64,000 nucleotides of DNA from NCBI GenBank assembly GCA_013204585.1, contig JABMNL010000038.1:21498-85497 (forward strand), in the 5' to 3' direction. The number at the start of each line of letters is the position of its first letter. Position 1 is the first letter of the stretch. This DNA is from SAR202 cluster bacterium. GTDB lineage: Bacteria > Chloroflexota > Dehalococcoidia > Lucifugimonadales > UBA3495. Under the pieces are notes generated by a model. The model was given only the letters and a program-made list of their open reading frames with translations. It was not told the origin of the DNA and searched no databases. Shown one piece after another: positions 1,215 to 63,607 of this stretch. The translations under genes were made by a program, and so were the position numbers.

Positions 1215-4200
1215 ATGGTCTGTCCCAGTTGTAAAAACGAAAATCCAGACGGCGCCAAGTTCTGCATGTCCTGCGGAAGCGCTCTAGTCAATCGCTGCCC
1301 TGAATGCAACACCGAGTTGCCAGGTGCGGCGCGCTTCTGCTTAAACTGCGGCCACCAGTTGGCGCCAGCCGGGACTGAAGACACGGCTGCTGAAGCTTCT
1401 CGCGCAAATCTTGAGCGGTATATCCCAGCCGAACTACTGAACAAGCTGGAGGCTGCCAAGGCTGGCGGAAAGACCGAGGGCGAGCGCCGCATCGTCACCA
1501 TGCTCTTCTGCGATGTTAGTGGGTCTACCGCCGCCGCTGAGAAGCTAGACCCAGAAGAGTGGGCACAGATAATGAACGGGGCATTCGAGAACCTGATTGC
1601 CCCGGTGTACCGCTACGAAGGGACGTTGGCCCGCTTGATGGGAGACGCTATTTTGGCGTTCTTCGGTGCGCCAATCGGCCATGAAGACGACCCACAAAGG
1701 GCCGTTATGGCGGGGCTGGAGATTGTCCGGGATATTGCGCCTTACCGGGGAAAAGTGAAGGCTGAGTGGGACCTAGACATAGAAGTCCGGGTCGGCATTA
1801 ATACCGGTTTGGTGGTCGTGGGCGAGGTTGGGTCTGACCTCCGGGTGGAATACACCGCCCTAGGCGACGCCATCAACCTGGCGGCCAGAATGGAACAGTC
1901 TGCCCAGCCGGGAACGGTACAGGTATCATCGGAAACCCACCGTTTGGTTGAGCCACTGTTTGAATTCGAAGACCTAGGCTTAATCAAGGTCAAGGGCAAG
2001 TCACAACCCGTCCGTACCTACCGGGCCTTGGGCCCCAAGGCCGCACCAGGTAGTCTACGTGGTATCGCAGGAGTACGGGCGCCACTGATTGGCCGCGACA
2101 AAGAAATCAACACGTTACGTCAAGTGGCCGCCAATCTTCGTGAAGGACGCGGCGGTATTGTCTCGATTATTGGCGAAGCCGGACTTGGCAAAAGCAGGCT
2201 CGTCCATGAACTAAGGGACGAACTTTCGGCTGGGCCTGGGGAGAAACTCCAATGGCTAGGGGCCCAGGGTGTTTCCTATGACACCTCGCGGCCCTACGCG
2301 TTCTTCTCCCAGCAACTCCGTCAATCGTTTGGCATCGAAGAGAATGACACCGTCGTGGAGACGCGGCAAAGGGTTAACCAGTCGCTCGACGGCCAGTCCC
2401 AAGACGAGAAGGACAATGTTGCCGACGCCGTCGAGTTCGTCCTTTCCAACGGTAACAATTCCGGTGTAAACGCGGAAGGCGCGACCGCCAAGCGGAAAAT
2501 GTTCGAGGCTGTACTCCGGGTCTGGCGTCAGACAACCACTCCAACCGTAATATTCTCCGAGGATTTGCATTGGGCCGATCCGGCTTCGGTTGAACTGTTG
2601 ACGCACTTGTTCCAATTGGCCGAGCAGGCCCCAATTCTGTTCTTGTGCGCCTTCCGCCTGGATCGCCAAGCGCCTTCGTGGCAAGTAAAAAACACCGGCG
2701 AGACCGACTATCCCCATCTATATACCGAACTGGCGTTGGTCCCGCTTTCCAGCGAAGAAAGCGACCAGCTGTTTGGCACTTTGTTCGATGTCCCGGGGTC
2801 GCCGCCTCAGCTTCGCCAGATGGTACTGGACAAGACCGAGGGCAATCCGCTATTTGTGGAAGAATTCACTCGGACGCTAATGGACACCGGTGCAATCGTT
2901 CAAGATGAAAACGGGTCGCACTGGAACCCCGCAGTAAAGCTGGAAGAAACTCCAATCCCAGAGAACCTACAGGCCCTGCTGACTTCGAGAATAGACCGAC
3001 TTGAGGAAACTGCCCGGCGTACCTTGCAGTTGAGCTCGGTGATTGGTCGGTCTTTCTACCGGCGAGTTCTGGAGCGTATATCCGACCCTGCAACCGTCCT
3101 TGACCGGGAGATTAGCACTCTCCAACGTGCTGAACTAATAACAGAGGCCAGCCGGGTGCCGGAACTGGAATATAGTTTCCGCCACGACCTGACCCGCGAC
3201 GCAGCCTATAGTTCAATACTGCTCCGCGCCCGCAAGGATTTTCACCTGCGGGTCGGTGAGACCGTTGAGGAGTTGTTCGGCGACCGTCTAGAAGAGCAGG
3301 CCCACCGCCTGGCCTACCATTTCTATGAGGCTGGGGCAGATGAGCGGGCGCTGAAATATTCATTGATGGCCGGAAAAGCGGCGGCGCGGCTCCACGCCCA
3401 CCCGGAGGCCAACGCCCACTATGCCAGGGCGATGGATATCTTGGGACGGGTGGAGTCTAGCAACCAGCAACGAATCGACACTTATATTGCCCGTGGTCGC
3501 ACGCTGGAGCTGATTGGCGAATACGACGAGGCTTTAGCCAACTATCAGCAACTGGGCGACCTGGGCGGTTCTCGAGAATGCCCAGCCATGGAGTTGGCCG
3601 CTCTGGTGGCCCAAGCGACGATTCACGCCACGTCCAACCCCAAATTCGACGCCAAGCTGGGCCGCGAATTATCCAATAGTAGTCTGGTCCTAGCGCGGGA
3701 ATTGAACGACCACCAAGCGGAATCCAAGGTTCTTTGGAACCTGATGCTGGTTGAGTACTACGAAGGTCAGAATCGTGAATCGGCCGTAAGCTACGGAGAG
3801 CAGTCGCTGGCCATTGCCAGGGAGCACGGCCTTGAGGAGCAATTGGCCTACACCCTGAACGACATCGCCAAGGGCTACTTCACCCTGGGGAAGGGCGATG
3901 ATGCCTGGGCCGCCCAGCGTGAGTCCAGCGACTTGCTGCGTAAGCTGGGCAACTTACCGATGCTCATCGACAGTCTGATTACCTCCGCTGGCGGTCACTA
4001 TTTTCTGGGTGATTTTGCCGACGCCCTGGCATCGTTGGAAGAGTGCGACGAGGTGAGCAAGTCCATTGGCAGCGTCCGTGGCCAGGCGGTCAGCCTCTAC
4101 GTGTTGGGCGCGGTTTACATGGAGTTGGGCGAGACTGGCAAAGCCACCGCCGCCTTGCAAGAGGCCATCGTTCTCGCGAAGCAGATTGGTTTCTACCCGC

Positions 4201-4853
4201 CGGTGACGGCCCGGTTGCGATTGGCTCTATATTGCGGCATGGTCGGAGACACTAAGGGAGGCCTCGACCTAGCAACCAACGCTCTCGAAGATGGTGACAA
4301 CCGGCAATTCTCCCTGGCTGCTCAGGCTCAAGCCCATCTGTCCGCCGGGGACATTACTAAAGCCCAAGAACTGATTATCGAGGCCTGCAAAGAGTTCGAA
4401 ACTGGCGAGTCCGACCCTAAGGCTGGCTACTCCGTCTTCCAGGTCATTGAAGGCGACATCGCCCTGGCCAACCAGCGGTATGACGACGCCCTCGCCCTGG
4501 CGGAGCGTACCCTCGCGACGCTGGACGAAATGGGCCAGCGGGTTACCCTGCCGGACATTCTTCGTTGCAAAGCCGAGGCGTTGATTGGCCTGGGCCGACT
4601 CGAAGAAGCCCAGGCGGTGCTAGACCATGCATTGACCGAAGCCGATACTCAGGGCTCACTACGCGCCCTTTGCCATCTACTACCGGCGCAGGCGAAGTTG
4701 TCGGACCTGCGCCGACTGCCCGACAAAGCTAGCGAGTTCCGTCTGCGAGCGCGGAAAGTCGTGGAGTACATCGCCGACCGGACCGGGTCCGACGAGATGC
4801 GGGCCATGTTCCTGAACTCGGCCAAAATTAAGGAGTTGATGAGCGCGTCGTAA
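1215..4853 (+). CDS. Zinc-ribbon / class III nucleotidyl cyclase / AAA ATPase / TPR regulator
   Basis: A 1212-residue signalling protein. The N-terminus carries two zinc ribbons (CPSC..CMSC and CPEC..CLNC, residues about 1-50). A class III adenylate/guanylate cyclase domain follows (about 90-270), with LFCDVSGSTAA and MGDAILAFFGAP supplying the metal Asp residues and GDAINLAARM the transition-state Asn/Arg. Next is a STAND-type ATPase with Walker A GEAGLGKSR (about 320-330) and a long C-terminal TPR region (about 700-1190). Residue spacing looks intact, so cyclase activity is plausible, gated by the ATPase/TPR part. The ORF track begins at GTG 1206, but ATG 1215 directly precedes the first zinc-ribbon Cys. 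Length and architecture are usual for large bacterial cyclases of this class. The ligand is unknown. Confidence 0.85.
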   Translation: MVCPSCKNENPDGAKFCMSCGSALVNRCPECNTELPGAARFCLNCGHQLAPAGTEDTAAEASRANLERYIPAELLNKLEAAKAGGKTEGERRIVTMLFCDVSGSTAAAEKLDPEEWAQIMNGAFENLIAPVYRYEGTLARLMGDAILAFFGAPIGHEDDPQRAVMAGLEIVRDIAPYRGKVKAEWDLDIEVRVGINTGLVVVGEVGSDLRVEYTALGDAINLAARMEQSAQPGTVQVSSETHRLVEPLFEFEDLGLIKVKGKSQPVRTYRALGPKAAPGSLRGIAGVRAPLIGRDKEINTLRQVAANLREGRGGIVSIIGEAGLGKSRLVHELRDELSAGPGEKLQWLGAQGVSYDTSRPYAFFSQQLRQSFGIEENDTVVETRQRVNQSLDGQSQDEKDNVADAVEFVLSNGNNSGVNAEGATAKRKMFEAVLRVWRQTTTPTVIFSEDLHWADPASVELLTHLFQLAEQAPILFLCAFRLDRQAPSWQVKNTGETDYPHLYTELALVPLSSEESDQLFGTLFDVPGSPPQLRQMVLDKTEGNPLFVEEFTRTLMDTGAIVQDENGSHWNPAVKLEETPIPENLQALLTSRIDRLEETARRTLQLSSVIGRSFYRRVLERISDPATVLDREISTLQRAELITEASRVPELEYSFRHDLTRDAAYSSILLRARKDFHLRVGETVEELFGDRLEEQAHRLAYHFYEAGADERALKYSLMAGKAAARLHAHPEANAHYARAMDILGRVESSNQQRIDTYIARGRTLELIGEYDEALANYQQLGDLGGSRECPAMELAALVAQATIHATSNPKFDAKLGRELSNSSLVLARELNDHQAESKVLWNLMLVEYYEGQNRESAVSYGEQSLAIAREHGLEEQLAYTLNDIAKGYFTLGKGDDAWAAQRESSDLLRKLGNLPMLIDSLITSAGGHYFLGDFADALASLEECDEVSKSIGSVRGQAVSLYVLGAVYMELGETGKATAALQEAIVLAKQIGFYPPVTARLRLALYCGMVGDTKGGLDLATNALEDGDNRQFSLAAQAQAHLSAGDITKAQELIIEACKEFETGESDPKAGYSVFQVIEGDIALANQRYDDALALAERTLATLDEMGQRVTLPDILRCKAEALIGLGRLEEAQAVLDHALTEADTQGSLRALCHLLPAQAKLSDLRRLPDKASEFRLRARKVVEYIADRTGSDEMRAMFLNSAKIKELMSAS

Positions 4854-9315: not shown

Positions 9316-10011
9316 GTGGTAAATAGTCATCGAACGCAGCTGGCGGCACTTACAGATGAGATTGTCGCCTGCCGCATGTGTACCCGCTTGGTCGATTGGC
9401 GGGAGAAGATTGGCGAACAAAAGCGGGCATCCTACCGGGACTGGGACTACTGGGCCAAACCCGTCCCCAGCTTCGGCGACCCCGACGCTTCCTTGGTGTT
9501 GCTGGGCCTGGCCCCGGCCGCCCACGGCGGCAATCGAACGGGCCGCGTGTTCACGGGCGATGCGTCAGCCACGTTCTTGACCTCGGCCATGCATCAGGCC
9601 GGTCTTGCCAACCAACCCAACTCTGACCACCGTGACGACGGCCTGGTCCTCTGCGGTGCCTACATTGGCGCGGCGGTGCGGTGCGTGCCCCCCGGCGACC
9701 GGCCCACCCCCGAAGAACAAAAGGCCTGCCTGCCCTACTTGGTGCGGGAGCTCAAGATTCTGCCCAATCTGAAAGTTATTATGGCCCTGGGCCATATTGC
9801 GTTCCGGGCCACGCTACAAACGTTGAGCGATATGGCCGGCGCAAAACTGCGCGGCAAGTTCCGGCACGGCGAGGTCTACCGTTTTGGTTCGTCGCTGCCG
9901 ATAATGGTCGCCTCGTACCACCCCAGCCCCCGCAACACCAACACCGGCGTGCTTTCTATGGAAGCGTTGGTGAAGGTGTTGAACCAGGCCAAGGAACTCA
10001 GCCAGAACTAA
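9316..10011 (+). CDS. Uracil-DNA glycosylase, family 4/5 (Fe-S type)
   Basis: A DNA-repair enzyme that excises uracil (and in family 5 sometimes other deaminated bases). N-terminal CRMC plus later Cys residues (AVRC, KACLPYL) are the four ligands of the [4Fe-4S] cluster of family 4/5 UDGs. The catalytic-region motif is LLGLAPAAHGGNRTGR, and the C-terminal motif is VASYHPSPRNTNTG. The GLAPA-HGGN..TGR form is closer to family 5 (UdgB). The ORF track opens at TTG 9277. GTG 9316 has CGGAG seven bases upstream and gives about 231 residues, so I prefer it. The DsbA-like selenoprotein follows 47 bases later and could be co-transcribed. Confidence 0.85.
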   Translation: MVNSHRTQLAALTDEIVACRMCTRLVDWREKIGEQKRASYRDWDYWAKPVPSFGDPDASLVLLGLAPAAHGGNRTGRVFTGDASATFLTSAMHQAGLANQPNSDHRDDGLVLCGAYIGAAVRCVPPGDRPTPEEQKACLPYLVRELKILPNLKVIMALGHIAFRATLQTLSDMAGAKLRGKFRHGEVYRFGSSLPIMVASYHPSPRNTNTGVLSMEALVKVLNQAKELSQN

Positions 10012-14311: not shown

Positions 14312-14367
14312 ATCTCGTGCCCCACTCGCCCATCCTAAATAACGTCCCCTGGGTGTTTAATCGGTGG

Positions 14368-15633
14368 TTAATCGCTAACGGGGTTTCCAGAAAGGACCAC
14401 GCCTTCTCGGCTTAGGATTTCCTGCATCTCGGACGGCAACGCCGTCAGCGCATTATTCGAAAGATACAGACGCTCAAGACTGGTTAAGTTAGCCATGGTT
14501 TCCGGGATTTCAGTTAAACGATTATTCGATATATAGAAGTCGAGTAGTTCGACCAAATTCCCTATCTCCATGGGCAACGACGTCAGCCGGTTATCGTTCA
14601 GATGGAACTCGTTCAGGTCCTTCAATTGGCCAATCTCCGGGGGCAACGACCGCAACCGGTTCTCGGCCAAGTCCAAGAAGATTAGGCCGGTCAAACTTCC
14701 GATATCGGCGGACAATTCCGCCAGACGATTGCTGCGCAGGTTTAGCTGGACCAAGCGGTTCAGACGGTGGAACCCGTCTGGCAATGCCACCAACTGGTTG
14801 CCTTCCATATACAGCCAGGTCAAGCCCGTCAAATTGCAAATCTGGGGTGGCAATTCCGACAGCTTGTTACCCTCCCCGTACAGACCTGTCAAACCTTCTA
14901 GATCGCCGATTTCACGGGGCAATTCCGTTAGTTCGTTGGCACCAAGGTATAACCAAGCCAGGCCCTTCAGGTTGCCAATCTCGGGAGGCAATGCGGTCAG
15001 CTTGTTGCCCTGCAAGTAAAGTTTGGTCAGGCCAGCCAGGCGACCAATGTCCGGCGGCACTTCCGTCAGCTCGTTCGAGTTCATATGCAGTTCGGTCAGA
15101 CCGCTCATGTTGCCGATGTTCGAGGGCAATGACTGTAGCTGATTATCTTGGAGGTAAAGCTCGGCCAAGGCGGTCAGGTTGCCTATCTCTGGTGGCAGTT
15201 CCGTTAGCTGGTTGCTGGCAAGGTAGAGCCAGGTGAGGCCGGTCAGATTGCCGATTTCGGGCGGCAGTTTCGTTAGCTGGTTGCTGCCCGCGTTCAACCG
15301 GGTTAGCTGGGTCAACGGGGCAATCGCAGCGGGCAATTCCGTCAGTTGGTTCTCCTGGAGGAACAACCGAGTCAGGTTGACCAGATTGCCAATCTCGGGA
15401 GGCAGCGCCGTCAACTGGTTCTCACGCAGGTTCAGCCTGGTCAGCCCGGTCAGGTTGCAGACCTCAGGCGGCACCTCGGTTAGGTGGTTGCCGGTCAGGT
15501 CAAGGTCGAGCAAGTTGACGAGGCCGCCAATCTCCGGCGGTAGGGACTCCAACCCTTGCCTTGAGAGGTCCAAAGTTGTGGCTTCATCGCTGAGCGCATC
15601 GGCGATGATTTCAGAAAGTTCGTCCTGGTTCAT
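14368..15633 (-). CDS. Leucine-rich-repeat protein
   Basis: A 421-aa protein that is almost entirely about 16-17 tandem 23-residue LRRs with consensus L..L.L..N.LT.LPPEIGNL, after a short N-terminal cap (ATTLDLSRQGLESLPPEIG). There is no signal peptide, membrane segment or fused kinase, Roc or nuclease domain, so it is probably a soluble protein-binding scaffold. The strong regularity shows expansion by internal duplication, and the DNA of this gene is repetitive. The ATG has only a weak AGGA upstream. Its position next to the tRNA-Glu-associated accessory region suggests it may itself be accessory. The partner is unknown. Confidence 0.85.
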   Translation of the reverse strand: MNQDELSEIIADALSDEATTLDLSRQGLESLPPEIGGLVNLLDLDLTGNHLTEVPPEVCNLTGLTRLNLRENQLTALPPEIGNLVNLTRLFLQENQLTELPAAIAPLTQLTRLNAGSNQLTKLPPEIGNLTGLTWLYLASNQLTELPPEIGNLTALAELYLQDNQLQSLPSNIGNMSGLTELHMNSNELTEVPPDIGRLAGLTKLYLQGNKLTALPPEIGNLKGLAWLYLGANELTELPREIGDLEGLTGLYGEGNKLSELPPQICNLTGLTWLYMEGNQLVALPDGFHRLNRLVQLNLRSNRLAELSADIGSLTGLIFLDLAENRLRSLPPEIGQLKDLNEFHLNDNRLTSLPMEIGNLVELLDFYISNNRLTEIPETMANLTSLERLYLSNNALTALPSEMQEILSREGVVLSGNPVSD

Positions 15634-15800: not shown

Positions 15801-15851
15801 TGGTGGGGGTGGGGGCGATTTGCCCCCCTGATCTCCACCTTGAGAGGGCGA
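15801..15851 (-). pseudogene. Degenerate 3'-half copy of tRNA-Glu(CTC)
   Basis: On the minus strand this reads GCCCTCTCAAGGTGGAGATC then a degenerate T-arm and CCA. It aligns with the anticodon arm through CCA of the intact tRNA-Glu at 19263-19339. The 5' half is absent. Such 3'-half copies are the usual footprint of integration by a tyrosine recombinase using a tRNA gene as attB. Confidence 0.7.
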
Positions 15852-16138
15852 GGCGAAGTTAATTGGGCCATGTTGTCAGGCACGATATGAGGTTATCTTG
15901 TCCACGGTCAAAAATCTGGTTCGTGCCTGAACTGCTACTTGATGTTATCTAATGTTGCAGCGCTTGGTTGCAAATTGGTTGCAAAAACTCCCCTGCACCT
16001 AAATACCGGAGATTCGTGATTTGCACCCCTTTTCGCAAACCCTAATTAATATCGTTGCCCTGTGTCATCAGGTATTAGTTAGTCCAATGTTAAGATGATA
16101 GCATTCGGTAAGGTTCTTTCCCAAAAGAGGGTGTGATT
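15852..16138. other. AT-richer spacer at island edge
   Basis: About 290 bases with no supported gene, between the tRNA-Glu fragment and the PD-(D/E)XK-like gene. A short direct repeat, TTGGTTGCAAA (near 15964 and 15974), is visible. Promoter elements for the downstream gene are presumably here but not clear. Confidence 0.4.
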
Positions 16139-17326
16139 ATGTGGCCTGGACCCACATTCCAAACATATTATCTTCACATTTCAACATCGGTCCGCGAATA
16201 CCTTGATAAGCAGGATCCGTCATATCTTCTGTCGGTAGACTTCGAAGAATACCTAGATTACCTAGAGTCTGAATTTATTTGGGATACTCAGGATTGGTAC
16301 ATAGATCAGCTAACGGCAGACCCTTACGTTACCAAAGAGCGGCGGTTGGGCCGTGGTGGTCGTCAGATTAACACCGAAGAACATCGAATCAGGCTGCGTA
16401 TTCCCCTTGGTCCGCACCCTCAGCGGAAAGACTACTTTAATTTTGGTCCTTCCACGACACGTGGGGCTCAGCCGGATTTTAAATTTGACGGCGACACATT
16501 GATCTTAGATGTTGAAGCGACCGAAGCAGCCGTTCAACGTGGTCAAGAGGACGTTAACTTCTGGCTCGGCAACCGGAATAAGGATATTGAGAAAGGTAAC
16601 AAGAATTTACGTGCTCAGATTAAGGGAGTATGGGAGGTAAAAAGGAAGCAGATCGACGAAGGGTTCGGGACGACGAATGAAGTTCTGAAAAATCTAAATC
16701 TGCCAATCCACCAAGACCCCAACGCCAAAGCAAAGCCGGTGGAAATCAAAAGGCGCGTACTGCGGACTGTCCTGGAGAAGCCCAGTAGTTCGACACGGTC
16801 CGAACAAACATTAAGCAGGGAAGATGTTATCGGGCTGATTGACTTTGTCGAACAGTATGTCAGGCAATTTGAAACATCACCCAAAGCCTATTCAGAAATG
16901 GGCGAAGAGCACTTGCGAGATATTCTTGCGGGGATGATTAACGCTAATTACCCAGGTAGTACTACCGGCGAGACTTTTAGCAAACTGGGAAAAACCGACA
17001 TTTCGTTTAAGGTGGACTCAGGCCACGTACTCATCTGTGAGTGTAAGTTCTGGACGGGAGCACACGCTTATGGAGAAGCGATAGACCAATTGTTTAGATA
17101 TTTGACGTGGCGTCAAAATTACGGTGTCTTGATTCACTTCTCGAAATTGAAAGAACTGACCAGAGCAATTTCAGAGGCTTCTCGAGGAATTTCTGAACAG
17201 GAGACTTATTCGGCTGGATCATTGTCCAACCAAGGCGAAACCCGGCTAACCAGCCGACATGTTCACCCCCAGGATTCCGAAAAGACCGTTGAAATCTTCC
17301 ACCTTTTTGTGGACCTGAGCTTTTAA
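16139..17326 (+). CDS. Predicted PD-(D/E)XK nuclease-like protein, possible defence gene
   Basis: A 395-aa soluble protein with no named family that I recognise. Near the C-terminus the strings GKTDISFKVDSG and LICECKFWTGAHAYGEAIDQ fit the D...(E/D)xK core of PD-(D/E)XK nucleases (about residues 285-320), followed by a helix and a beta strand (YGVLIHF). The N-terminal two thirds may be a recognition domain. ATG 16139 is preferred over GTG 16133 because AGAGGG then has normal spacing. Base composition is more AT-rich than the flanks. It lies between two tRNA-Glu fragments, next to an integrase remnant, so it is probably island cargo, perhaps a stand-alone restriction or anti-phage nuclease. 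Activity is inferred only. Confidence 0.6.
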   Translation: MWPGPTFQTYYLHISTSVREYLDKQDPSYLLSVDFEEYLDYLESEFIWDTQDWYIDQLTADPYVTKERRLGRGGRQINTEEHRIRLRIPLGPHPQRKDYFNFGPSTTRGAQPDFKFDGDTLILDVEATEAAVQRGQEDVNFWLGNRNKDIEKGNKNLRAQIKGVWEVKRKQIDEGFGTTNEVLKNLNLPIHQDPNAKAKPVEIKRRVLRTVLEKPSSSTRSEQTLSREDVIGLIDFVEQYVRQFETSPKAYSEMGEEHLRDILAGMINANYPGSTTGETFSKLGKTDISFKVDSGHVLICECKFWTGAHAYGEAIDQLFRYLTWRQNYGVLIHFSKLKELTRAISEASRGISEQETYSAGSLSNQGETRLTSRHVHPQDSEKTVEIFHLFVDLSF

Positions 17327-17334
17327 TATCTACG

Positions 17335-17559
17335 GTCACACCGCAGTTTCGGAGGACAGCTAAACGAGCGAGTCTCGCTGATGCCCGGCTCCACGATTTG
17401 AGGCACACACATGCATCTTTGATGCTTCAGCAAGGGATCTACGTCAAAACCATCAGTACGAGATTAGGGCACTCGAGTGTTGCATTCACGATGGACACCT
17501 ATACTCATTTAATGCCGGGCATGCAGAAGCTGGCTATAGAAAAGAATGAGGATGGATGA
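17335..17559 (+). pseudogene. Tyrosine recombinase (integrase), C-terminal fragment
   Basis: This frame has no proper start and is missing from the ORF track. It translates to RLHDLRHTHASLMLQQGI, then RLGHSSVAFTMDTYTHL and an acidic tail. These are the box II H-x-x-R, the second His (LGHSS) and the nucleophilic Tyr (DTYTH) of phage-type integrases. Only the last ~75 residues remain; the DNA-binding domain and first catalytic Arg are gone. The stop TGA overlaps the ATG of the next gene (ATGA). It is the likely relic of the enzyme that targeted tRNA-Glu. Confidence 0.85.
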
Positions 17560-18005
17560 TGGAAGAGAAAGAAGCAGTGCGGCAAACCATGGCGTTAGTT
17601 TTCACAGCGCAGACCATAATAATCGCGTTAGGATTGACCTTACTGCGATCTGTATATTCCAATTTTGTGGATAGATGTCGCCAATTTAATTTGGATCCAA
17701 ATCTTCTTTTTTGGAAGACTTTCCCGAGGCCCTCGGCGCGTTCCTTTTGGATCATGTCGATTTTCTCGATTTGGACGCTTGCGGCTTCTGTTGTGGCGAG
17801 TACATGGGGCATCATGACAACTGCTGGCATAATCTTTAACATCGACCCCTCATCCTGGCTCGCTCTTTTGATAGCGGGCGGATTGACCATTCGCACTGCG
17901 GAAGTAACAGCATATTTCGGGGCTATGTTTTTCGCCATTGGATTGTTCTTGACAGGTTTATCAGTGTTCTTTATAACCGACAAATTGGACGATTCAATTG
18001 GGTGA
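17556..18005 (+). CDS. Small membrane protein, island cargo
   Basis: A 149-aa protein with hydrophobic segments near residues 8-28, 65-88, 98-112 and 115-138, separated by short basic loops (RPSAR). No conserved motif is recognised. The ATG overlaps the stop of the integrase fragment (ATGA), so translation may depend on readthrough from the remnant, or the true start may be the second codon (MM). A strong terminator follows at 18111. Function is unknown. Confidence 0.55.
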   Translation: MMEEKEAVRQTMALVFTAQTIIIALGLTLLRSVYSNFVDRCRQFNLDPNLLFWKTFPRPSARSFWIMSIFSIWTLAASVVASTWGIMTTAGIIFNIDPSSWLALLIAGGLTIRTAEVTAYFGAMFFAIGLFLTGLSVFFITDKLDDSIG

Positions 18006-18110
18006 CCGGTTCTTTGCGCTGGTTCGCCTTCTTTAGTATTTCCTCGGCATCGGCAACCCTCTCCCTTCCATAAGACAGTTCCAAATGCTTGGTTGCAAGA
18101 CCTAAAATAT

Positions 18111-18142
18111 AAATCCTCCTAAATTTTCTCAGGAGGATTTTT
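18111..18142. terminator. Terminator beside second tRNA-Glu fragment
   Basis: AAATCCTCCT pairs with AGGAGGATTT around a ten-base loop and is followed by T residues. It can serve the membrane-protein gene on the plus strand, and it occupies the position of the tRNA terminator relative to the adjacent minus-strand tRNA-Glu remnant. Confidence 0.7.
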
Positions 18143-18153
18143 GTGCCTAAATT

Positions 18154-18202
18154 TGGTAGGACGTAGGGAATTTGGACTCCTGTACTCCCCCTTGAGAAGG
18201 CA
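18154..18202 (-). pseudogene. Second degenerate 3'-half copy of tRNA-Glu(CTC)
   Basis: Minus-strand sequence CCTTCTCAAGGGGGAGTAC through TTCCCTACGTCCTACCA aligns with the 3' half of the intact tRNA-Glu, CCA included, with roughly ten mismatches. The next bases (AATTTAGGCACAAAAA) also match the intact gene's 3' flank. The 5' half is missing. Confidence 0.75.
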
Positions 18203-18257
18203 AACCTGCATTTCGGTTGTCTCGAATAAGTCTGCAATCTTAGGCTCCCTCATTAAG

Positions 18258-18950
18258 CTACCGCTGGACAATTTCTCCAATATCCGAGAGTTCGTCTAAC
18301 CCTACGATGGGGAACCCGTTCTGTTCGGCGGCGGCGTGGAGTTTTTCCCTGGCCGCTCCCCTGATATAGATACCCGAGTCGACCAACAAAAACGGCATCC
18401 CCAGTTGTACCGCCGCCTCCATGTCGTGGCTAGAATCGCCGACATAGACGGTGCGGTTAACCTGCCCGCCCAGCCGGTCGACAGTCTTGGTTAAGATTTC
18501 TGGGTCTGGCTTACCTTGAGTCACGTCATCGACGGTCAAAATAGCGTCGAAATAGGCATTGATGCTGTGATAGCCCAAAACACTATCAACAACTACGCGG
18601 GTGCTCATCGTGGCCACGGCCAGCCGGTACTTACCATCCTGCAACAAGGCCAGAAGCTCTTTGACCCCCGACAGCAGCACCACTTCGCTGGTGAGGTCCA
18701 ACTGTAGACTGCTCCGCAACTGGACGGCATCTTCCAGTAGCTGGCCAGCCTGGTCTGAACCCAGGTCTCGATCCAAGAAATGGTGCAACAACTTCCTGGC
18801 CCCGCCGCCAAACACCTCCCTTAGCTCGGCGGCCGTCACCTGGACGCCGAACCGGGACAACGCCTCGATGGTTGCGCCCAGCGCCGCCGGTTGACTGTCC
18901 ACCAATGTCCCGTCCAAGTCGAAAATGACTGTGTCGATGTTGTTGGTCAT
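18258..18950 (-). CDS. HAD-superfamily phosphatase, phosphoglycolate-phosphatase-like
   Basis: A 230-aa cytosolic hydrolase. Motif I VIFDLDGTLVDSQ supplies the nucleophile and acid/base Asp, motif II is VATMSTRVV (Thr/Ser), motif III is the Lys in TQGKPDPEI and motif IV is YVGDSSHDMEAA. The helical cap between motifs I and II makes it a C1-cap HAD, like Gph, PgmB or PpaX. The substrate is uncertain. GGAG four bases before ATG 18950 supports the start. It lies between a tRNA-Glu fragment and the intact tRNA-Glu, so it could be the only cargo of a short island or a resident gene caught between two integrations. Confidence 0.87.
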   Translation of the reverse strand: MTNNIDTVIFDLDGTLVDSQPAALGATIEALSRFGVQVTAAELREVFGGGARKLLHHFLDRDLGSDQAGQLLEDAVQLRSSLQLDLTSEVVLLSGVKELLALLQDGKYRLAVATMSTRVVVDSVLGYHSINAYFDAILTVDDVTQGKPDPEILTKTVDRLGGQVNRTVYVGDSSHDMEAAVQLGMPFLLVDSGIYIRGAAREKLHAAAEQNGFPIVGLDELSDIGEIVQR

Positions 18951-19060
18951 TACTCTCCAAATTCACTGTTGGGCCAGTATATTGCCACCTGACCATGAAA
19001 TGGGGCGTTGCCTAAATAGTAACGAAAGAACCTAGTTTTAGGTTCAAACAGCCCTATCCG

Positions 19061-19150
19061 CATGTCACCCTGAGCGTAGCGAAGGGTCTGCCTAGGTGGT
19101 GCTTGGAAGATTCTTTCCCGATACGCCGGGACTTCACTCCTCAGAATGAC
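19061..19150. repeat. Dispersed repeat (CTGAGCGTAGCGAAGGGTCT family)
   Basis: This copy reads CACCCTGAGCGTAGCGAAGG, then a segment shared with 63911-63990 in the opposite orientation (GGTGCTTGGAAGATTCTT), then TCAGAATGAC. The outer ends are imperfect inverted repeats (GTCACCCTGAG / CTCAGAATGAC). It is an intergenic, non-coding repeat of the type found in many copies in some bacterial genomes. Confidence 0.75.
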
Positions 19151-19217
19151 AGCTTTACCGCACCCCCCCCACGTAGGGGTTACACGACCGTATTGTAGAG
19201 TCAGCAAAACGCAAAAG

Positions 19218-19250
19218 AAAAGACCCTTGGAGTTTACCAAGGGTCTTTTT
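19218..19250. terminator. Terminator downstream of tRNA-Glu
   Basis: AAAAGACCCTTGG and CCAAGGGTCTTTT form a 13-bp perfect stem with a six-base loop and T-runs on both strands. It lies just 3' of tRNA-Glu, which is transcribed from the minus strand. Confidence 0.85.
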
Positions 19251-19262
19251 CGTGCCTAAGTT

Positions 19263-19339
19263 TGGTAGGGCGTAGGGGATTTGAACCCCTGATCTCCGCC
19301 TTGAGAGGGCGGTGTCCTGGGCCGCTAGACGAACGCCCC
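19263..19339 (-). tRNA. tRNA-Glu (anticodon CTC)
   Basis: The minus strand folds as a standard cloverleaf. The acceptor is GGGGCGT with ACGCCCT (first pair G-U), discriminator A, and encoded CCA. The anticodon arm is CGCC-CTCTCAA-GGCG, with anticodon CTC decoding GAG. The T-arm is GGGG-TTCAAAT-CCCC. It is the intact parent of the two 3'-half copies at 15801 and 18154, so it is an integration hotspot. Confidence 0.92.
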
Positions 19340-57717: not shown

Positions 57718-57814
57718 GGGAGTGGATGGGGCCCGGTGGCTCTTGCGGACTTCAAATCCGTTATGCCTCGTGACGAGCGGGGTAGGTGGGTTCGACTCCC
57801 TCGCACTCCCGCCA
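57718..57814 (+). tRNA. selC: tRNA-Sec (anticodon TCA)
   Basis: About 97 bases including CCA, much longer than ordinary tRNAs. The acceptor GGGAGTG pairs with CACTCCC; an extended eighth position is present, as in bacterial tRNA-Sec. The D-arm is GGGCC-CGGT-GGCTC. The anticodon arm is GCGGA-CTTCAAA-TCCGT, with anticodon TCA reading UGA. The variable arm is long (GCCTCGTGACGAGCGGGG region). The T-arm is GGGTTCGACTCCC and the end is GCCA. It matches the known bacterial selC layout. It implies that the host inserts selenocysteine at UGA, consistent with two TGA-interrupted genes in this window. Confidence 0.93.
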
Positions 57815-57826
57815 GACAAAATCTAG

Positions 57827-57871
57827 GCATAAAACAAGGCCCTGGAACTCTTCCAGGGCCTTGTTTTATGC
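57827..57871. terminator. 21-bp perfect hairpin after tRNA-Sec
   Basis: GCATAAAACAAGGCCCTGGAA pairs exactly with the following TTCCAGGGCCTTGTTTTATGC around CTC. It contains a T-run on the descending arm and would terminate selC. Confidence 0.88.
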
Positions 57872-58115
57872 GGGTGGCCGGAGTGGTGATTTGGGGCCGA
57901 TGTGCACAGGGCGTGCCAAGACCCAAAAACAGGTGGTAAGCTAGAATTTAATGCATTCGAGTCTTGCTGAAGGCATAGCGTCAGCCGAAATGGAGAATCT
58001 CGGATAATATGTCATCCCTGACTATAGTGGCAGTCCGCTTCCGGTAACCCCATCCGGCTTAAACCTGGGGATGCCTGGGGGCGTTAGAACATTCACATTC
58101 AAAGGAGCAAAAGTA

Positions 58116-58223
58116 ATGGGTGAAAAGAATGGTAAAAAAAATAAATCCCAAAAAGAAAAACAGACCGCTGCAACGCATACGCTAAAGGAAAAACGTAAAT
58201 TGAAAAAAGAGAAGTCGCTCTAA
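58116..58223 (+). CDS. Lysine-rich 35-aa peptide
   Basis: Too short for the ORF track. ATG 58116 has AAAGGAG upstream, and the product is MGEKNGKKNKSQKEKQTAAT then a second basic run, with about a third Lys. Similar tiny basic proteins occur in phage and island DNA and may bind nucleic acid; this is speculation. It lies just inside the tRNA-Sec island. Confidence 0.5.
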   Translation: MGEKNGKKNKSQKEKQTAATHTLKEKRKLKKEKSL

Positions 58224-58306
58224 GGAGCTTTCACTACGCGGACGAGGGAACGAGTCTGTTGTTCGGTGGGGCCAAGTGGTGTCGCTGGGAATGCCGTCGG
58301 TATGGC

Positions 58307-58888
58307 TTAAGACGTACCCGCTTTCTCCAGCAACGCCAGGGCCAACTCTGCCGTTTTAGTGGTGTCATAAAGGGCATCGTGGGCCAGGCCACGATCAAAT
58401 GGTACTCCGTAATAATCACACGCTTCACCTAAACCCAGGTATTCCGTGAGACCCAACCTCGCTCGCGGAAGATGGCCCAGGCTACGCACGTCAATCACCT
58501 TGAAGGTGAACGGTACAACTCTGTCAATACGCCTGAATGCATCTTGGAGAAACTTGGTCTCGAAGTCCGCACCCCAAGCGGCGAGTACTGTTTCGTTCCA
58601 ATTCACCCCACGGCCAAAGTCTTCCAATGCCAGCTTGGCCGAAATCCCCTCGGCTTGAAGCTTTTCAATGGTTAGCCCGTTCACTTTCATTGCCGCCTGA
58701 TCTCGCTGATCCCACCGCGTGGGTAGGATGTACTCGGACATCGTCAGGCCGGGAATTATGGTTTTCTCTACGGTGTCTATTACTACCCGGGCAATCTGGA
58801 TGATTTCATGCCTCTCAGGTTCAAGACCGGTGCACTCTAAGTCAGTAACACACCAATATCTAGCATTTGTCGGTTTATATGTGACCAC
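58307..58888 (-). CDS. DEDDh 3'-5' exonuclease
   Basis: A 193-aa exonuclease of the DnaQ/RNase T (Exonuc_X-T) class. ExoI motif WCVTDLECTGLEP gives D-x-E. The ExoII region AWGADFETKFLQDAF contributes an Asp. ExoIII is RGLAHDALYDTTKTAEL with the H-x4-D signature. It is a stand-alone domain without polymerase or helicase parts and may act on RNA or on DNA ends. It lies between intact tRNA-Sec and its 3'-half copy, so it is likely island cargo. The start ATG 58888 (MVTYKPTNARYW) has AGGGAC upstream. Confidence 0.85.
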   Translation of the reverse strand: MVTYKPTNARYWCVTDLECTGLEPERHEIIQIARVVIDTVEKTIIPGLTMSEYILPTRWDQRDQAAMKVNGLTIEKLQAEGISAKLALEDFGRGVNWNETVLAAWGADFETKFLQDAFRRIDRVVPFTFKVIDVRSLGHLPRARLGLTEYLGLGEACDYYGVPFDRGLAHDALYDTTKTAELALALLEKAGTS

Positions 58889-59169
58889 GCGTTAAAGTCC
58901 CTCAAGGCCGAGTCAAAGGCTCCAATCGATTTATAACACACTTAGCTTTGATTGTTCTCAGTTAATTTCATATATATCGTCAGTGCCGCCTGATCTTTCC
59001 TGTTGGCCGGTCCCTCGAGTTCGACCTTTTATTGGGCCGTGGGCAACTATTTTTTCTGGCTCCAGAATGTGCACGTTCGTTGCAACTTCGATTGTGTTGG
59101 CGGGTGCTTTTAGCTTCAACCAGAGAACGGTACAACATCGTCCGCCACTCCTAAACACGGTTTATAAGT

Positions 59170-59236
59170 GACTTCGAATCCGTCATACCTCGTGACGAGC
59201 GGGGTCGGTCGGTTCGACTCCCTCGCACTCCCGCCA
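59170..59236 (+). pseudogene. 3'-half copy of tRNA-Sec with anticodon TCG
   Basis: Sixty-seven bases match tRNA-Sec from the anticodon loop (GACTTC) to CCA with five differences. One changes the anticodon from TCA to TCG. The 5' half is absent, so it cannot be a functional tRNA. The downstream flank (TTTAGGCACGAAAAGG, then a hairpin AGACCCC..GGGGTCT) also parallels the intact gene. It is best read as the distal attachment site of an element integrated at selC. Confidence 0.85.
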
Positions 59237-59602
59237 GCATTTTTTAGGCACGAAAAGGTGTTTTTGAGACCCCTGCTCTGGAAACAGATGTTGGGGTCTT
59301 TTGGTTTTTGCCAATATGCCCACGGATTGTCCACCAACTATTTCTGAGGCCGGTTCGCTCGGCACAAAAATCCAATCGGTATGATTCGGCAGGTATTTAT
59401 ATTATCCCAAGTCACCTGTCGTACCGTATCAAACCGCGTGACGCATAATTTCGCTTTGATTTAGTTAGTCTGTAGTCATTGACTGATGCATCTTAGTATC
59501 CAGTGGCATTCCGAAGCTGTAAGATTCGGGCTAGAAATCAAACTGCCGATACGAGTATACTTCCTAACTAAATTGATAATTGCGCGAGGGTGCTCAGAAT
59601 AA
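59237..59602. other. Spacer after the tRNA-Sec copy
   Basis: Contains a terminator-like hairpin near 59257-59304 (AGACCCC..GGGGTCT, then TTTTGG). Otherwise AT-rich, with no supported gene on either strand. Confidence 0.45.
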
Positions 59603-60037
59603 ATGACAACTTTCTTGGTTCTATCTCGACGATATTGGTTTATCGCTCTTGCTTCCCTGTTAGTCATCAGTTTCGGGGCCTGTGCTGCTCAAAATACTGG
59701 GAATTCTAATAATTCGTCGTCTTCATCTAAGCAGGGGTCTGCTGAGACCTCGGTTTCAGTTAATTGGTACGAGGGTGGAACCTTGCACCGGGCCACGGTA
59801 TCTTCATGGAGAAGCGCAACCTATGGTAACAAATTGGCAACTGCAGCAGACTTTTTGACGGCTACCCTTTGGAAGGGACAACTTAAATCTCCTGACGATT
59901 TCGATAGGTTGAAATTAAAAGCAACAATGCTAGTTGCAGCGATTGATGATGTGGCAACGGTAGAACTAACCGCTTCGTTAGACGTCGCCGAAATCGCGTC
60001 GGGCATATTTCTATTAGGAAATGACCTCGGACCATAA
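59603..60037 (+). CDS. Putative lipoprotein, island gene
   Basis: A 144-aa protein with a signal sequence (SRRYWFIALASLLVISFGAC). The lipobox Cys lies at about residue 27, followed by a Ser/Asn-rich linker (NSNNSSSSSKQGS) and a ~95-residue globular part (VSVNWYEGGTLHRATVSSWR). Low GC compared with core genes. No family recognised. Domain layout suggests a membrane-anchored extracytoplasmic protein, possibly an exclusion or accessory factor of the element. Confidence 0.6.
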   Translation: MTTFLVLSRRYWFIALASLLVISFGACAAQNTGNSNNSSSSSKQGSAETSVSVNWYEGGTLHRATVSSWRSATYGNKLATAADFLTATLWKGQLKSPDDFDRLKLKATMLVAAIDDVATVELTASLDVAEIASGIFLLGNDLGP

Positions 60038-60138
60038 CACTTGTCGATGAATATCGGTGAGCCAGATTGGTCTCCTCTCGGATTGCACGTTAAATAAACG
60101 CGTCAGAAGGCCTTTAGTGTAAACATGGGGTAGGGGAG

Positions 60139-60528
60139 TTGGTTTTCGATTTGTTCGGTCCGGTCCGGGGAAGTTCTAGGCCCAGTAAAGCTGAAAAGGA
60201 CGCTCTCAGCGCGAAACAAAAGGACCGCTGCAATTACTGCGGGAAACGCGGGTTGGCGTACTTGGAAGTCGACCACAAGAATCCTGTGGAGAGAGGTGGT
60301 TCGAATGGAATCGCCAACAAACAGTTGCTATACGGTCCGTGTAACAAAAGGAAAGGGGCCATGACAGATGGGGAGTTTCGCCGACGGTACAAGCTACCAG
60401 GTGTACGAAGTGTAGGCGGCCCCCCGGCCAGAACCATTCCGCAGTCGTACTTTGAAGAAATCAGCAAGGCCGTTGGCAAACGGAAAGCTACAGCTCGGAA
60501 GAAAGCAGCAGATGATTGGTGGTGGTGA
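60139..60528 (+). CDS. HNH endonuclease
   Basis: A 129-aa protein with DRCNYCGKRGLAYLEVDHKN and LLYGPCNKRKG. It shows CxxC, the V-D-H catalytic pair and a Cys/His-Asn C-terminal part of HNH/McrA-type zinc-stabilised nucleases. C-terminal basic tail (KRKATARKKAADD) may bind DNA. The TTG start is uncertain, since the purine-rich GGGGAG abuts it. Such nucleases occur as restriction, homing or phage packaging factors; no terminase is near. Confidence 0.82.
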   Translation: MVFDLFGPVRGSSRPSKAEKDALSAKQKDRCNYCGKRGLAYLEVDHKNPVERGGSNGIANKQLLYGPCNKRKGAMTDGEFRRRYKLPGVRSVGGPPARTIPQSYFEEISKAVGKRKATARKKAADDWWW

Positions 60529-60608
60529 TGTTTACCGTGTGGCCTTGAGAGACGGTATTCCGAGCCAGACCCGCACAAAATTGACTAGTGTGACGTTAGG
60601 TGTGAACG

Positions 60609-61190
60609 ATGAGACGATTCCACACTAGGGTTCCAGTAAATTTCAATATGGCGGCCTCGGTCGCTGTTACCACGCTCCTTGTTCTCCTTTCCATTGTGTT
60701 GATTTGGCTAATCAAATGGGGTGACTGCAACCTCCACGAATCGGGCCATTACGTAGTAGGCCGTTTACTCGGAATCCCTATCGCCGATATTGATTGGTGC
60801 GGCCCAAGGTCGTTGAAAGGTGAGGTCATCCCGAAAATCAGCGAGAATTCGGTCCGATTTAGTTTGTTCTATTTTTCTGGGGGCTTGATTTCGGGTGCAG
60901 GATTACTAGCCATCAATTTATTTATATTCGCTAATGTGAACAAGGAGACCCGGAGTCTAATCTGGCTCTTCTTCGGACTTCTCATTACTATCATTGCGAC
61001 GACCGAGCTCTTCTTAGGGCTCTTTGAAGGCATTGACCATGTTGCCTACCAACAAAGTGGAGGCAAGCCCGCTCTCTGGGCGATTCCCATAATTGTCGGC
61101 ATTGCGCTCCACGGGTTGACCATAAGGAATACGACATGGGGTAGGTACTTCAAGTACTTGTTCAGGAAACGTAATACCTCCGAGCCATGA
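60609..61190 (+). CDS. Membrane protein with HExxH motif (M50-like)
   Basis: A 193-aa protein with about four hydrophobic segments (about 18-36, 92-108, 118-138, 158-172). After the first helix is CNLHESGHYVVGRLLGIP, an H-E-x-x-H zinc-protease motif in the place expected for M50/SpoIVFB-like or M48-like membrane proteases, followed by GIPIADIDWCGP. The usual distal N-P-D-G Asp motif is not obvious. It may therefore be a degenerate or divergent member. Island neighbour of HNH and GIY-YIG proteins. Confidence 0.55.
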   Translation: MRRFHTRVPVNFNMAASVAVTTLLVLLSIVLIWLIKWGDCNLHESGHYVVGRLLGIPIADIDWCGPRSLKGEVIPKISENSVRFSLFYFSGGLISGAGLLAINLFIFANVNKETRSLIWLFFGLLITIIATTELFLGLFEGIDHVAYQQSGGKPALWAIPIIVGIALHGLTIRNTTWGRYFKYLFRKRNTSEP

Positions 61191-61223
61191 ACAGCCAGGA
61201 CACCAGAAGAGGAGAATTTGGAG

Positions 61224-61778
61224 ATGGTTGAAGAGTCTCATTGCGCTAAAATCCATTGCGATAAACCGGGTACCTACGCCAAACCCCTCTGCTACGAGCA
61301 TTGGAGAGACTTCGACCGCTTCTACATCCACGAATGCGACCGGTGTCATCGGTTCCACGAGATGGTAGGAGAATTCAACGAAGAGGACGAACCCCAGTTG
61401 TGTTTCGACTGTAACCGGGGAGATGCCGTTGAGGTCGTAGCGCATGGTCCGGTAGAACACGAAACGCGTTACCTATACATTCTTAGGCTCAATAATGGCA
61501 AATTCTACGCGGGTCAAACCGATGACTTGGAAATGCGCCTACGAGAACACCAAGATGGTTCGAGTAGGTCGACTGCCGGGAAAGCTGGCAAGCTTGTATG
61601 GTTTGAGCGTTGGTATGGCAACAAGAAAGAATTAGACGCCGAAGAACGAGAGTTAAATAGGGACGCGGTCAGAGCACCATGGTCGATTAGCCGGATGGTG
61701 ATTGAGTGGCAGCGACCATTGCGTCTAGTGGACTTGAATGAGCTATCCGTCGCGCCGCCTGGTCCAACCACAAATTAG
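61224..61778 (+). CDS. Zinc-knuckle plus GIY-YIG nuclease-domain protein
   Basis: A 184-aa protein. The N-terminal ~75 residues are Cys/His-rich (HCAKIHCDKPG, HECDRCHRFHEM, LCFDC) and probably bind two zincs. The GIY-YIG-type core follows: RYLYILRLNNGKFYAGQTDD and LEMRLREHQDGSS (catalytic Arg/His region), then a Glu in AEERELNRD. Such stand-alone domains resemble the UvrC/SLX1-like nucleases. ATG 61224 is favoured, with AGGAG nine bases before. It ends 22 bases from the convergent rhodanese selenoprotein gene. Confidence 0.8.
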   Translation: MVEESHCAKIHCDKPGTYAKPLCYEHWRDFDRFYIHECDRCHRFHEMVGEFNEEDEPQLCFDCNRGDAVEVVAHGPVEHETRYLYILRLNNGKFYAGQTDDLEMRLREHQDGSSRSTAGKAGKLVWFERWYGNKKELDAEERELNRDAVRAPWSISRMVIEWQRPLRLVDLNELSVAPPGPTTN

Positions 61779-61800
61779 TTATCCGCCCCTCCACTTTTGG

Positions 61801-62202
61801 CTAAATACCCATTTCAATCGTCGGCAACCCCGCTGCTTTCCAGCCGCGCATGCCGCCGTCCATGTAGGTTACGTTGGTGAATCCCATTTGTTTGAGCACT
61901 TGAGCCCCAAGCGCGGCCATTTGGCCGCCCCCTCAAGTGACGATGACCTGTCGCGAACGGTCCGCCAAGCGCGGGTCACGCAAGCGCTCGGCTATCTCCA
62001 GGTCGGCACGCATCGGCAGCGAGCCCAAAGAAATCATCGCCACGCCAGGGGCCCTATCTTGCTGCGGTACAGACTCGGCGTCTCGCACCTCAATCAGCAT
62101 CGCTTCCTGGTCGTCCTGAAGCCGCTGTTGCGCCTCGGCGGGGGAAACTCCCACCACTTCGGCCTTTGCCTCGTTCACCATATCGGTCCAGCTCTTGGCC
62201 AT
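61801..62202 (-). CDS. Rhodanese-domain selenoprotein (in-frame TGA = Sec90)
   Basis: The ORF track stops at the TGA at 61933-61935, leaving a rhodanese fold cut at its catalytic loop (RQVIVT). Reading TGA as Sec gives IVT-U-GGGGQMAALGAQVLKQMG, then YMDGGMRGWKAAGLPTIEM and a TAG stop. That is the complete C-terminal half of a single-domain rhodanese, including the G-F-x-N-V and GG-x-x-x-W motifs. U falls exactly at the catalytic cysteine. ATG 62202 with AGGAG seven bases upstream gives 133 residues. It lies 58 bases after threonine synthase on the same strand. Likely a sulfur- or selenium-transfer enzyme. A nonsense mutation is the alternative, but the downstream frame is intact. Confidence 0.85.
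61913..61935 (-). promoter_or_regulatory. Sec UGA and candidate SECIS hairpin (rhodanese)
   Basis: On the minus strand the UGA is followed after four bases by GCGGCC-AAAT-GGCCGC, a perfect 6-bp G/C stem (61913-61928). A longer alternative pairs CCAA with TTGG further on. The hairpin position just after UGA fits a bacterial selenoprotein gene, though the loop lacks the usual early G. Confidence 0.45.
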
Positions 62203-62260
62203 GGTCATACTCCTGAATCAAACTTTGCCTGAGTATTTAAGTACCTGAGTATAAGACGTA

Positions 62261-63394
62261 TTACCGGGGCGGCTCATCCTTGAGGCCAAAGCCAGTGACC
62301 GGGACGAGTACCGTATCGCTTTCCTGGATGACACCTTGGCTGGCCAGTTCCTCGAGTCCCGCGAACGCCGCCGCCGACGTCGGTTCGGCGAAAATGCCTT
62401 CCTGCTCGGCCAAGTCGCGCTGCATGCGCAGGATGCTCGATTCGTCCACCGCCACCGCAGACCCGGCGGTCAGTCGCAGTATCTCTAGAATCTGCCACTG
62501 ACGGGACGGCGCGGCCACCGAAATTCCCCCGGCAACCGTTTTGGTGGCGTCGGCCAGACTCCATGTCTCATTGTTAAAGGCAGCGACCAACGGCATGACG
62601 TTGCGGGCCTGCACGGCGTGGAGCCGGGGGATCTTGTCAATTATTCCCGACGCTTGTAGCTCCCTAAACCCCTGGAACGCCCCAATCAAAAGGGAGCCGT
62701 TGCCCACCGGGAAAACAACGTGGTCGGGCATCGCTCCATTTAACTGCTGCACGACAAACTGCTGGACAACCTCGTAGCCGAAGGCCTTGGTGCCCTCGGC
62801 GAAGTAGGGGCTCAACATATGGGACGCGTAGACCAGACCGTGCTGCTGGTGGAATGCCACGGCCGCGGAGGTAACGGCCTCCCGTGTGCCTGCGATGGGA
62901 TGTATCTCGGTGCCATAGGCCCTAATCTGCCGGAGCTTCGCCTCAGGGGCGTCGGCGGGCACGAAGATGTGCGACTTGATGCCAGCGCGGGCGGCGTAGG
63001 CCGACACCGACGCCCCAGCATTGCCCGACGAGTCTTCAACCAACTCGGTGACGCCGTGTTCCCTGGCGACGGAAACCATGGTGGCAGTACCCCGGTCCTT
63101 GAATGACCCGGTCGGATTAAGAAATTCTAGCTTGGCAAATAGCTGACTGAGCGGCAGGCGTCCGCCAATGGTCAGCAGCTTGACGCAAGGCGTGTTGCCC
63201 TCCCCCAGGGATACCATCGAACCTGGCTCGTGTATCGGCGAGGGAATCGCATTAACGTCCGCCGCCAACCCTGTTTCGTCGTGAGTAATGTACGCAACAT
63301 CCAATGGCAATCCACAATCCAGGCAGACCTCCGCCGACATGTCCGCCGGGCGGGACTTGCCGCACCTCGGGCAGCGTAACTCGATGTGTGACAC
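62261..63394 (-). CDS. thrC: Threonine synthase
   Basis: A 377-aa fold-type II PLP enzyme. It starts with a Cys-rich zinc-finger-like N-terminus (LRCPRCGKSR and VCLDCGLPL), typical of the ThrC group with CxxC pairs. The PLP Lys lies in NPTGSFKDRGTATM, the phosphate loop in PVGNGSLLIG, and substrate residues around EDSSGNAGASVSAYA. It converts O-phosphohomoserine to threonine. GTG 63394 has GGAGG eight bases upstream. It is followed by the rhodanese selenoprotein gene, probably in one transcript. Confidence 0.88.
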   Translation of the reverse strand: MSHIELRCPRCGKSRPADMSAEVCLDCGLPLDVAYITHDETGLAADVNAIPSPIHEPGSMVSLGEGNTPCVKLLTIGGRLPLSQLFAKLEFLNPTGSFKDRGTATMVSVAREHGVTELVEDSSGNAGASVSAYAARAGIKSHIFVPADAPEAKLRQIRAYGTEIHPIAGTREAVTSAAVAFHQQHGLVYASHMLSPYFAEGTKAFGYEVVQQFVVQQLNGAMPDHVVFPVGNGSLLIGAFQGFRELQASGIIDKIPRLHAVQARNVMPLVAAFNNETWSLADATKTVAGGISVAAPSRQWQILEILRLTAGSAVAVDESSILRMQRDLAEQEGIFAEPTSAAAFAGLEELASQGVIQESDTVLVPVTGFGLKDEPPR

Positions 63395-63607
63395 TCAACC
63401 GCCTCCGTATTGAAATTGCTGGGCCATGCTCATTCGCAATTGCCCATAGCATACCCCGCCATTGCCGATGCCCGAAATGGCCTATAATCTGTGATGCCTC
63501 GACAAGATAAGGCGCGGTGTCTAGGATTCGCAGACCCGCCCTTTAATTGCTCGAAAATCCTCGGGCGCGCCGCCGGTGCGACCCGTTAAATATACCAAGG
63601 GGAAACT

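Follow-up and report, generated by a model that had tools for sequence, protein, structure and literature searches.

Short, mostly integrase-free gene modules stacked at the tRNA-Sec gene of SAR202 bacteria

The tRNA-Sec gene (selC) in a 64,000-nucleotide stretch of DNA from a SAR202 cluster bacterium (the window) is followed by a displaced copy of its own 3′ half, and the same gene recurs in relatives as a dock for short modules that carry no integrase. The best explanation, to which we assign a probability of about 0.88, is integration by a tyrosine recombinase at the anticodon region of selC, the module at this site being now devoid of an integrase, a second one lying behind it and the dock having been reused genus-wide. 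A preliminary description of this DNA had proposed the remnant of an integrated element at selC; integration stands, and the single relic is replaced by two tandem modules in a dock that serves the whole genus.

The source genome is a 3.1-Mb draft of 92% completeness. It encodes SelA, so that selC is probably in use. A genome-wide search with selC returned two matching places only, the second of which (E = 3.2e-22) covers tRNA positions 31–97 (Table 1). The two copies share the strand and agree at 62 of 67 bases up to the CCA, which confirms the previously described repeat of 67 bases with five mismatches, running in the same orientation from the anticodon loop to CCA. A repeat search reported it as a 68-nt direct repeat (57748–57815 and 59170–59237, 93% identity, spacing 1422), and this tRNA half is the sole long repeat of the region. 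One of the five mismatches changes the anticodon from TCA to TCG, and the loss of the Sec anticodon is expected of a piece that is without selection. As a control for chance, 38 distinct tRNAs of the genome were examined over up to 15 kb downstream of each, or less where contigs end. A displaced 3′ half on the same strand was present for three of the 38, namely Sec (one), Glu (two) and Asp (one, 25 nt), and a minus-strand one for none of them within the same distances. The displaced selC half is thus not a product of chance.

The two copies had also been said to have the same flank, and the shared sequence is real: the motif TAGGCAYRAAA and a GC hairpin follow the CCA behind both. Being of the tRNA trailer and terminator type found at several tRNA genes, this flank is by itself no evidence for integration. 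TTTAGGCACGAAA and then a GC hairpin stand behind several tRNA genes of the genome (L173–L202 and the window), as a shared trailer of terminator-like appearance. The sequence TAGGCACGAAA after the CCA was considered as an integrase arm site and rejected, since it is a common tRNA trailer before a terminator (34 tRNAs checked).

Table 1. Features of the selC and tRNA-Glu docks in the window
Feature	Position	Strand	Remarks
Second displaced tRNA-Glu 3′ half	15801–15850	−	84% identical; closes a 2.3 kb module
Integrase C-terminal remnant in second tRNA-Glu module	17329–17511	+	PF00589, E = 1.1e-10
Displaced tRNA-Glu 3′ half	18154–18201	−	83% identical; closes a 1.06-kb module
HAD hydrolase gene	18258–18950		Sole gene of first tRNA-Glu module
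tRNA-Glu(CTC)	19263–19339	−	Only other tRNA of the window; second dock
Intact selC (tRNA-Sec, anticodon TCA)	57718–57814	+	ARAGORN and Rfam RF01852 (66.4 bits); 3′ half, from about 57746–57748, is the attL copy
First module	57815–59169		Between selC and displaced half; 1.36 kb
tRNA trailer hairpin	57827–57871	+	Perfect 21-bp arms; terminator-like; type also found after other tRNAs of the genome
Left-arm-like sequence ATGTGCACAGGGCGTGC	57897–57920	+	Resembles, by eye, left arm GATGTGCACAGGATGTGCACAG of tRNA-Lys element L118
Lys-rich ORF, 35 codons	58116–58223	+	Putative; gene status without support
DEDDh 3′-5′ exonuclease (RNase_T)	58307–58888	−	Cargo; PF00929, E = 2e-17
Right attachment arm (GTGCACGTTCGTT...TTAGCTTC...CTCCTAAACA)	59063–59157	+	80% identical to L118 11387–11481; kin in L066 and L063
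Displaced selC 3′ half (attR)	59170–59236	+	93% identical; begins in anticodon stem
Left end of second module	59237–59341	+	Trailer, hairpin and arm-type repeat pair ATGCCCACGGAT/TGTCCACCAACT at 59316–59339
HNH endonuclease	60139–60528	+	Second module
GIY-YIG domain protein	61218–61778	+	Second module
Right edge of low-GC stretch	61819–61820		Relative-alignable DNA resumes abruptly: rhodanese-like gene, then thrC

The GC content is 0.497 in the first module and 0.492 at 59238–61930, as compared with 0.572 before and 0.587 after the two modules. The preliminary description had placed two genes between the selC copies, and they fared differently. The DEDDh exonuclease is matched by its Pfam profile; it is patchily distributed, occurring in 8 of the 50 genomes of the family if that of the window is counted, and its counterparts in the others are 75–93% identical and lie at other loci. 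The Lys-rich peptide gene exists as an open reading frame, to which none of the other retrieved loci showed a DNA match and which nothing supports as a gene. No integrase is left between the copies, as had been stated: PF00589 has no match at 57815–61819, and integrases were found only in related elements. On the left side of the first module, BLAST gave no match to L118, so that the likeness of the two left arms is one seen by eye.

An arm-style repeat pair stands behind the displaced half, and the second module thus begins there and extends to about 61819. Matches to a third selC half that would close it were at chance level only (best local score 28, with shuffles reaching 31). In the DNA to its right (61820–63413), the order of the rhodanese-like gene and thrC is opposite to that in G008 and G002, so that the right flank of the island must have undergone a rearrangement. 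thrC with ferredoxin was considered as the ancestral right flank of selC and rejected, as these genes are located elsewhere and ordered differently in relatives. A tandem array of two modules, similar to that at selC, is also present at tRNA-Glu(CTC) (15801–19339).

Conserved arms of at least two kinds lie upstream of the selC halves. The right arm of the first module matches an arm of the tRNA-Lys element L118 of genome G001 with an E value of 7e-20, and L118 connects this arm to an integrase. It starts with a complete tRNA-Lys(CTT) gene (9730–9804) and a GTGCAC repeat pair and continues with an integrase C-terminus (HELRHAHATLL...LGH...Y), after which come two small ORFs, the arm and a displaced tRNA-Lys half of 48 nt. 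Many integrases in the relatives end just upstream of a direct-repeat pair, a hairpin and a tRNA 3′ end, and repeat pairs of this style also stand behind selC copies that lack an integrase, such as the one at 59170 of the window.

Elements that combine a selC site with an integrase, which the preliminary description had proposed to seek, occur in two relatives. In L052 (G008), a PF00589 integrase gene begins 27 bp from a selC half, and in L127 (G017), an intact P4-type tyrosine integrase (14342–15559; PF13356, PF22022 and PF00589) is located 145 bp behind an intact selC, with no displaced half found within the fetched stretch. A relative of the L052 integrase in G002 (59% identical) has its start near a half of tRNA-Leu(UAA), the anticodon region of which resembles that of selC; no tRNA half was seen beside an L052-like integrase in G013 (L104). 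The contig of L052 ends in CRISPR-like repeats (GGTTCACCCCCACAGGCGTGGGGAAGAC, 4420–4585), which the integrase module adjoins. The shared right arm and these integrase-bearing cousins carry the tyrosine-recombinase reading, and the enzyme that acted on the window modules is, judging from the integrases of the relatives, likely to have been of this class.

Sixty genomes of relatives were searched with tRNA-Sec. Most are metagenome bins, with part of the extra copies being on short contigs and possibly misbinned, and some selC copies are cut by contig ends or runs of N. The order tatA-tatC-trmA/maf-trxA-selC is kept in the genus and in much of the family, and trxA-selC is kept at the level of the order, with the genes downstream of selC varying between genomes. 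Conserved synteny of 57815–59236, named earlier as the finding that would speak against integration, was not observed: the window's genes for the DEDDh, HNH and GIY-YIG proteins adjoin no other selC among the relatives compared. In relatives with a single selC (e.g. G035), the downstream DNA does not align with the window from 59238 onward, element-like ends excepted, and no close strain showed the exact empty site.

Extra selC 3′ halves or pieces beyond the intact gene occur in 10 of the 11 other genomes of the same genus and in several genomes of other genera (G013, G016, G028, G029, G034), with up to five extra copies per genome. Many genomes have a single selC copy, including single-contig ones such as G035. 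The halves usually start at tRNA position 29–36, in the anticodon stem-loop, and many are 96–100% identical; some selC copies end early, after positions 49–81. G005 and G047 each have a tandem array of two modules on one contig, the halves in G047 being short and of the T-arm type. The selC cores in L037, L039, L062, L063, L065 and L066 stop after 21–27 bases, several of them behind typical arms, and the same sequence follows the broken-off core in L065 and L066. In L040, L046, L047, L048, L051 and L061, the selC half and the arm repeats are followed by part of the tRNA-Lys anticodon region in inverted orientation, 83–96% identical. No viral contigs carrying a 30-mer of the selC core were found.

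Nine modules have selC or its half on both sides. They contain one or few genes each and span 0.75–6.2 kb (window, 1.36 kb; G001, 1.05; G005, 6.16 and 1.07; G029, 2.87; G016, 3.64; G034, 2.01; G047, 2.64 and 0.75), and a PF00589 integrase is present in none of the nine. Their cargo includes genes for an exonuclease, an alpha/beta hydrolase, a lanthipeptide dehydratase and cyclase, a monomeric isocitrate dehydrogenase, an amino-acid permease and a PemK-like toxin. An enrichment of luciferase-like monooxygenases in the cargo was considered and dropped, the numbers (3 of 47 module genes, none listed for 95 controls) being too small. One module is shared by two bins (L035 of G002, 1427–3027, and L148, 4081–5709), with 98.8% identity over 1.6 kb and a different position in the array; in L148 it is located directly at selC. 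There, selC is interrupted after tRNA position 81 and ARAGORN detects no tRNA-Sec, so that the gene was apparently damaged by the insertion. L048 and L061, 3-kb contigs from bins of two genera, share 1.67 kb that includes the selC 3′ end at 99.8% identity, which points to either recent transfer or misbinning.

Combining these data, we suggest that a small integrative element would have entered the anticodon region of selC by phage-type integration through a tyrosine recombinase. A tRNA segment running from the anticodon stem to the CCA would have come with the element, together with the trailer and terminator; selC (57718–57814) was thereby restored, while the original 3′ half was displaced to the far end (59170–59236), where it drifts freely. 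The first module retains its arms and one recognisable cargo gene, that of the exonuclease, without an integrase, and a second, similar module (59238 to about 61819) lies behind it. In the SAR202 genus, the selC dock is used repeatedly by short modules of cargo genes, the end sequences of which are of at least two kinds. The data show the restored tRNA with its displaced half, the right arm in common with an element that has an integrase remnant, the recurrent use of selC and the lack of integrases in the modules; we infer that strands were exchanged within the anticodon loop, and likewise the order of events. Such modules most likely descend from elements that once had an integrase and lost it, an original lack being the alternative, and related integrases encoded elsewhere in the cell may have mobilised some of them in trans.

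A segmental duplication of the selC 3′ half without any integrase, through slippage during replication or through homologous recombination, would also fit the absence of other long repeats from the region. We regard this origin as highly improbable. It is contradicted by the conserved arms upstream of the halves, which share their tRNA start position across many genomes, enclose unrelated genes and occur together with integrases, and the control with 38 tRNAs argues against it as well.

Under integration by a tyrosine recombinase, the present state of the modules can be read in two ways. The identical halves and the shared module point to recent movement, and the truncated integrases and the five mismatches between the selC copies of the window point to decay. 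It is nearly an even bet that the modules are scars of ordinary integrase-bearing islands, the genes of which were deleted and none of which is mobile now. The integrase C-termini left in L118 and in the window's tRNA-Glu module agree with such scars, as do the five substitutions in the displaced half, but the many halves with 96–100% identity, the single coherent gene or operon in each tandem module and the 1.6 kb module that is 98.8% identical at different array positions in two bins do not. We consider it possible, and hold this tentatively, that genus-specific integrases actively shuffle integrase-less modules in trans with selC as a main platform. The lack of an integrase in nine modules out of nine, the up to five extra copies per genome, the variable array position of the shared module and the near-identical 1.67 kb of module DNA in bins of two genera would all be expected of such a system; however, that last match sits on 3-kb contigs that may be misbinned, no excised form was seen, and the acting integrase is only putative.

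In enterobacteria, P4-type islands use selC. The window, in contrast to these islands, has no adjacent P4-type integrase (Arm-DNA-bind_3), whereas its relative L127 (G017) does have one. Integron cassettes and Xer-mobile dif modules are short one-gene modules that are stacked at one site without a recombinase of their own; the repeat of the selC modules differs in being a tRNA half flanked by arms. The Pf-tRNA-Sec prophages of Pseudomonas use selC as attB with a 27-bp site in the T-arm (PMC7549136), whereas the window modules use the stretch from the anticodon stem to the CCA and have no integrase. In the Islander work (PMC4383910), an island is delimited by a restored tRNA and, oriented alike, a displaced 3′ fragment, and anticodon-centred sites are one of two common classes. 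The selC modules resemble such islands in the restored tRNA, the displaced 3′ half and its start near the anticodon. Islander, however, requires an integrase for each island, tandem arrays included, and the selC modules, which are 0.75–6.2 kb long and have none, would be missed by a search of this type.

Closer in taxonomy are the ssrA islands of Dehalococcoides (PMC3146451), which are arranged in tandem behind one RNA gene, contain an integration module in 16 of 31 cases and include CRISPR arrays as cargo. The SAR202 elements share with them the class Dehalococcoidia, the stacking behind an RNA gene and, in L052, CRISPR-like repeats. The ssrA islands target tmRNA, with a crossover in the T-loop, 20-bp repeats and the serine recombinase DsiB, whereas the SAR202 elements target selC at the anticodon stem, with repeats of 67–69 nt and tyrosine integrases of PF00589. 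Tycheposons, as described in PMC10872708, are 4–200 kb in size and have a recombinase; by that description, they are similar in being marine and tRNA-anchored and in their tyrosine recombinase and metabolic cargo, and the selC modules differ in being bounded at 0.75–6.2 kb with no recombinase. Islands at tRNA genes, selC as a target and islands stacked behind one RNA gene were thus known already, and the new element is the short, mostly integrase-free selC arrays in SAR202. No description of such arrays in SAR202 was found in the literature searched, which covers few of the subscription journals. The SAR202 pangenome paper (PMC6946804) makes no mention of integrases or tRNA sites and prefers gene duplication as the source of its enzyme families.

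Arrays of this kind are overlooked by island finders that demand an integrase. With them, the theme of stacked islands known from Dehalococcoides comes to include a further RNA gene and a different class of recombinase, still within Dehalococcoidia, and the repeatedly used selC dock is a concrete place to study gene gain in an abundant and hardly cultured ocean clade. A broader cassette-like exchange in SAR202, in which selC and a few other tRNAs would be the platform and integrases would act in trans to stack and shuffle integrase-free modules of one or few genes, each ending in a tRNA half and arm repeats, and to spread them among species, seems to us rather unlikely; if true, it would feed the enzyme diversity of the clade.
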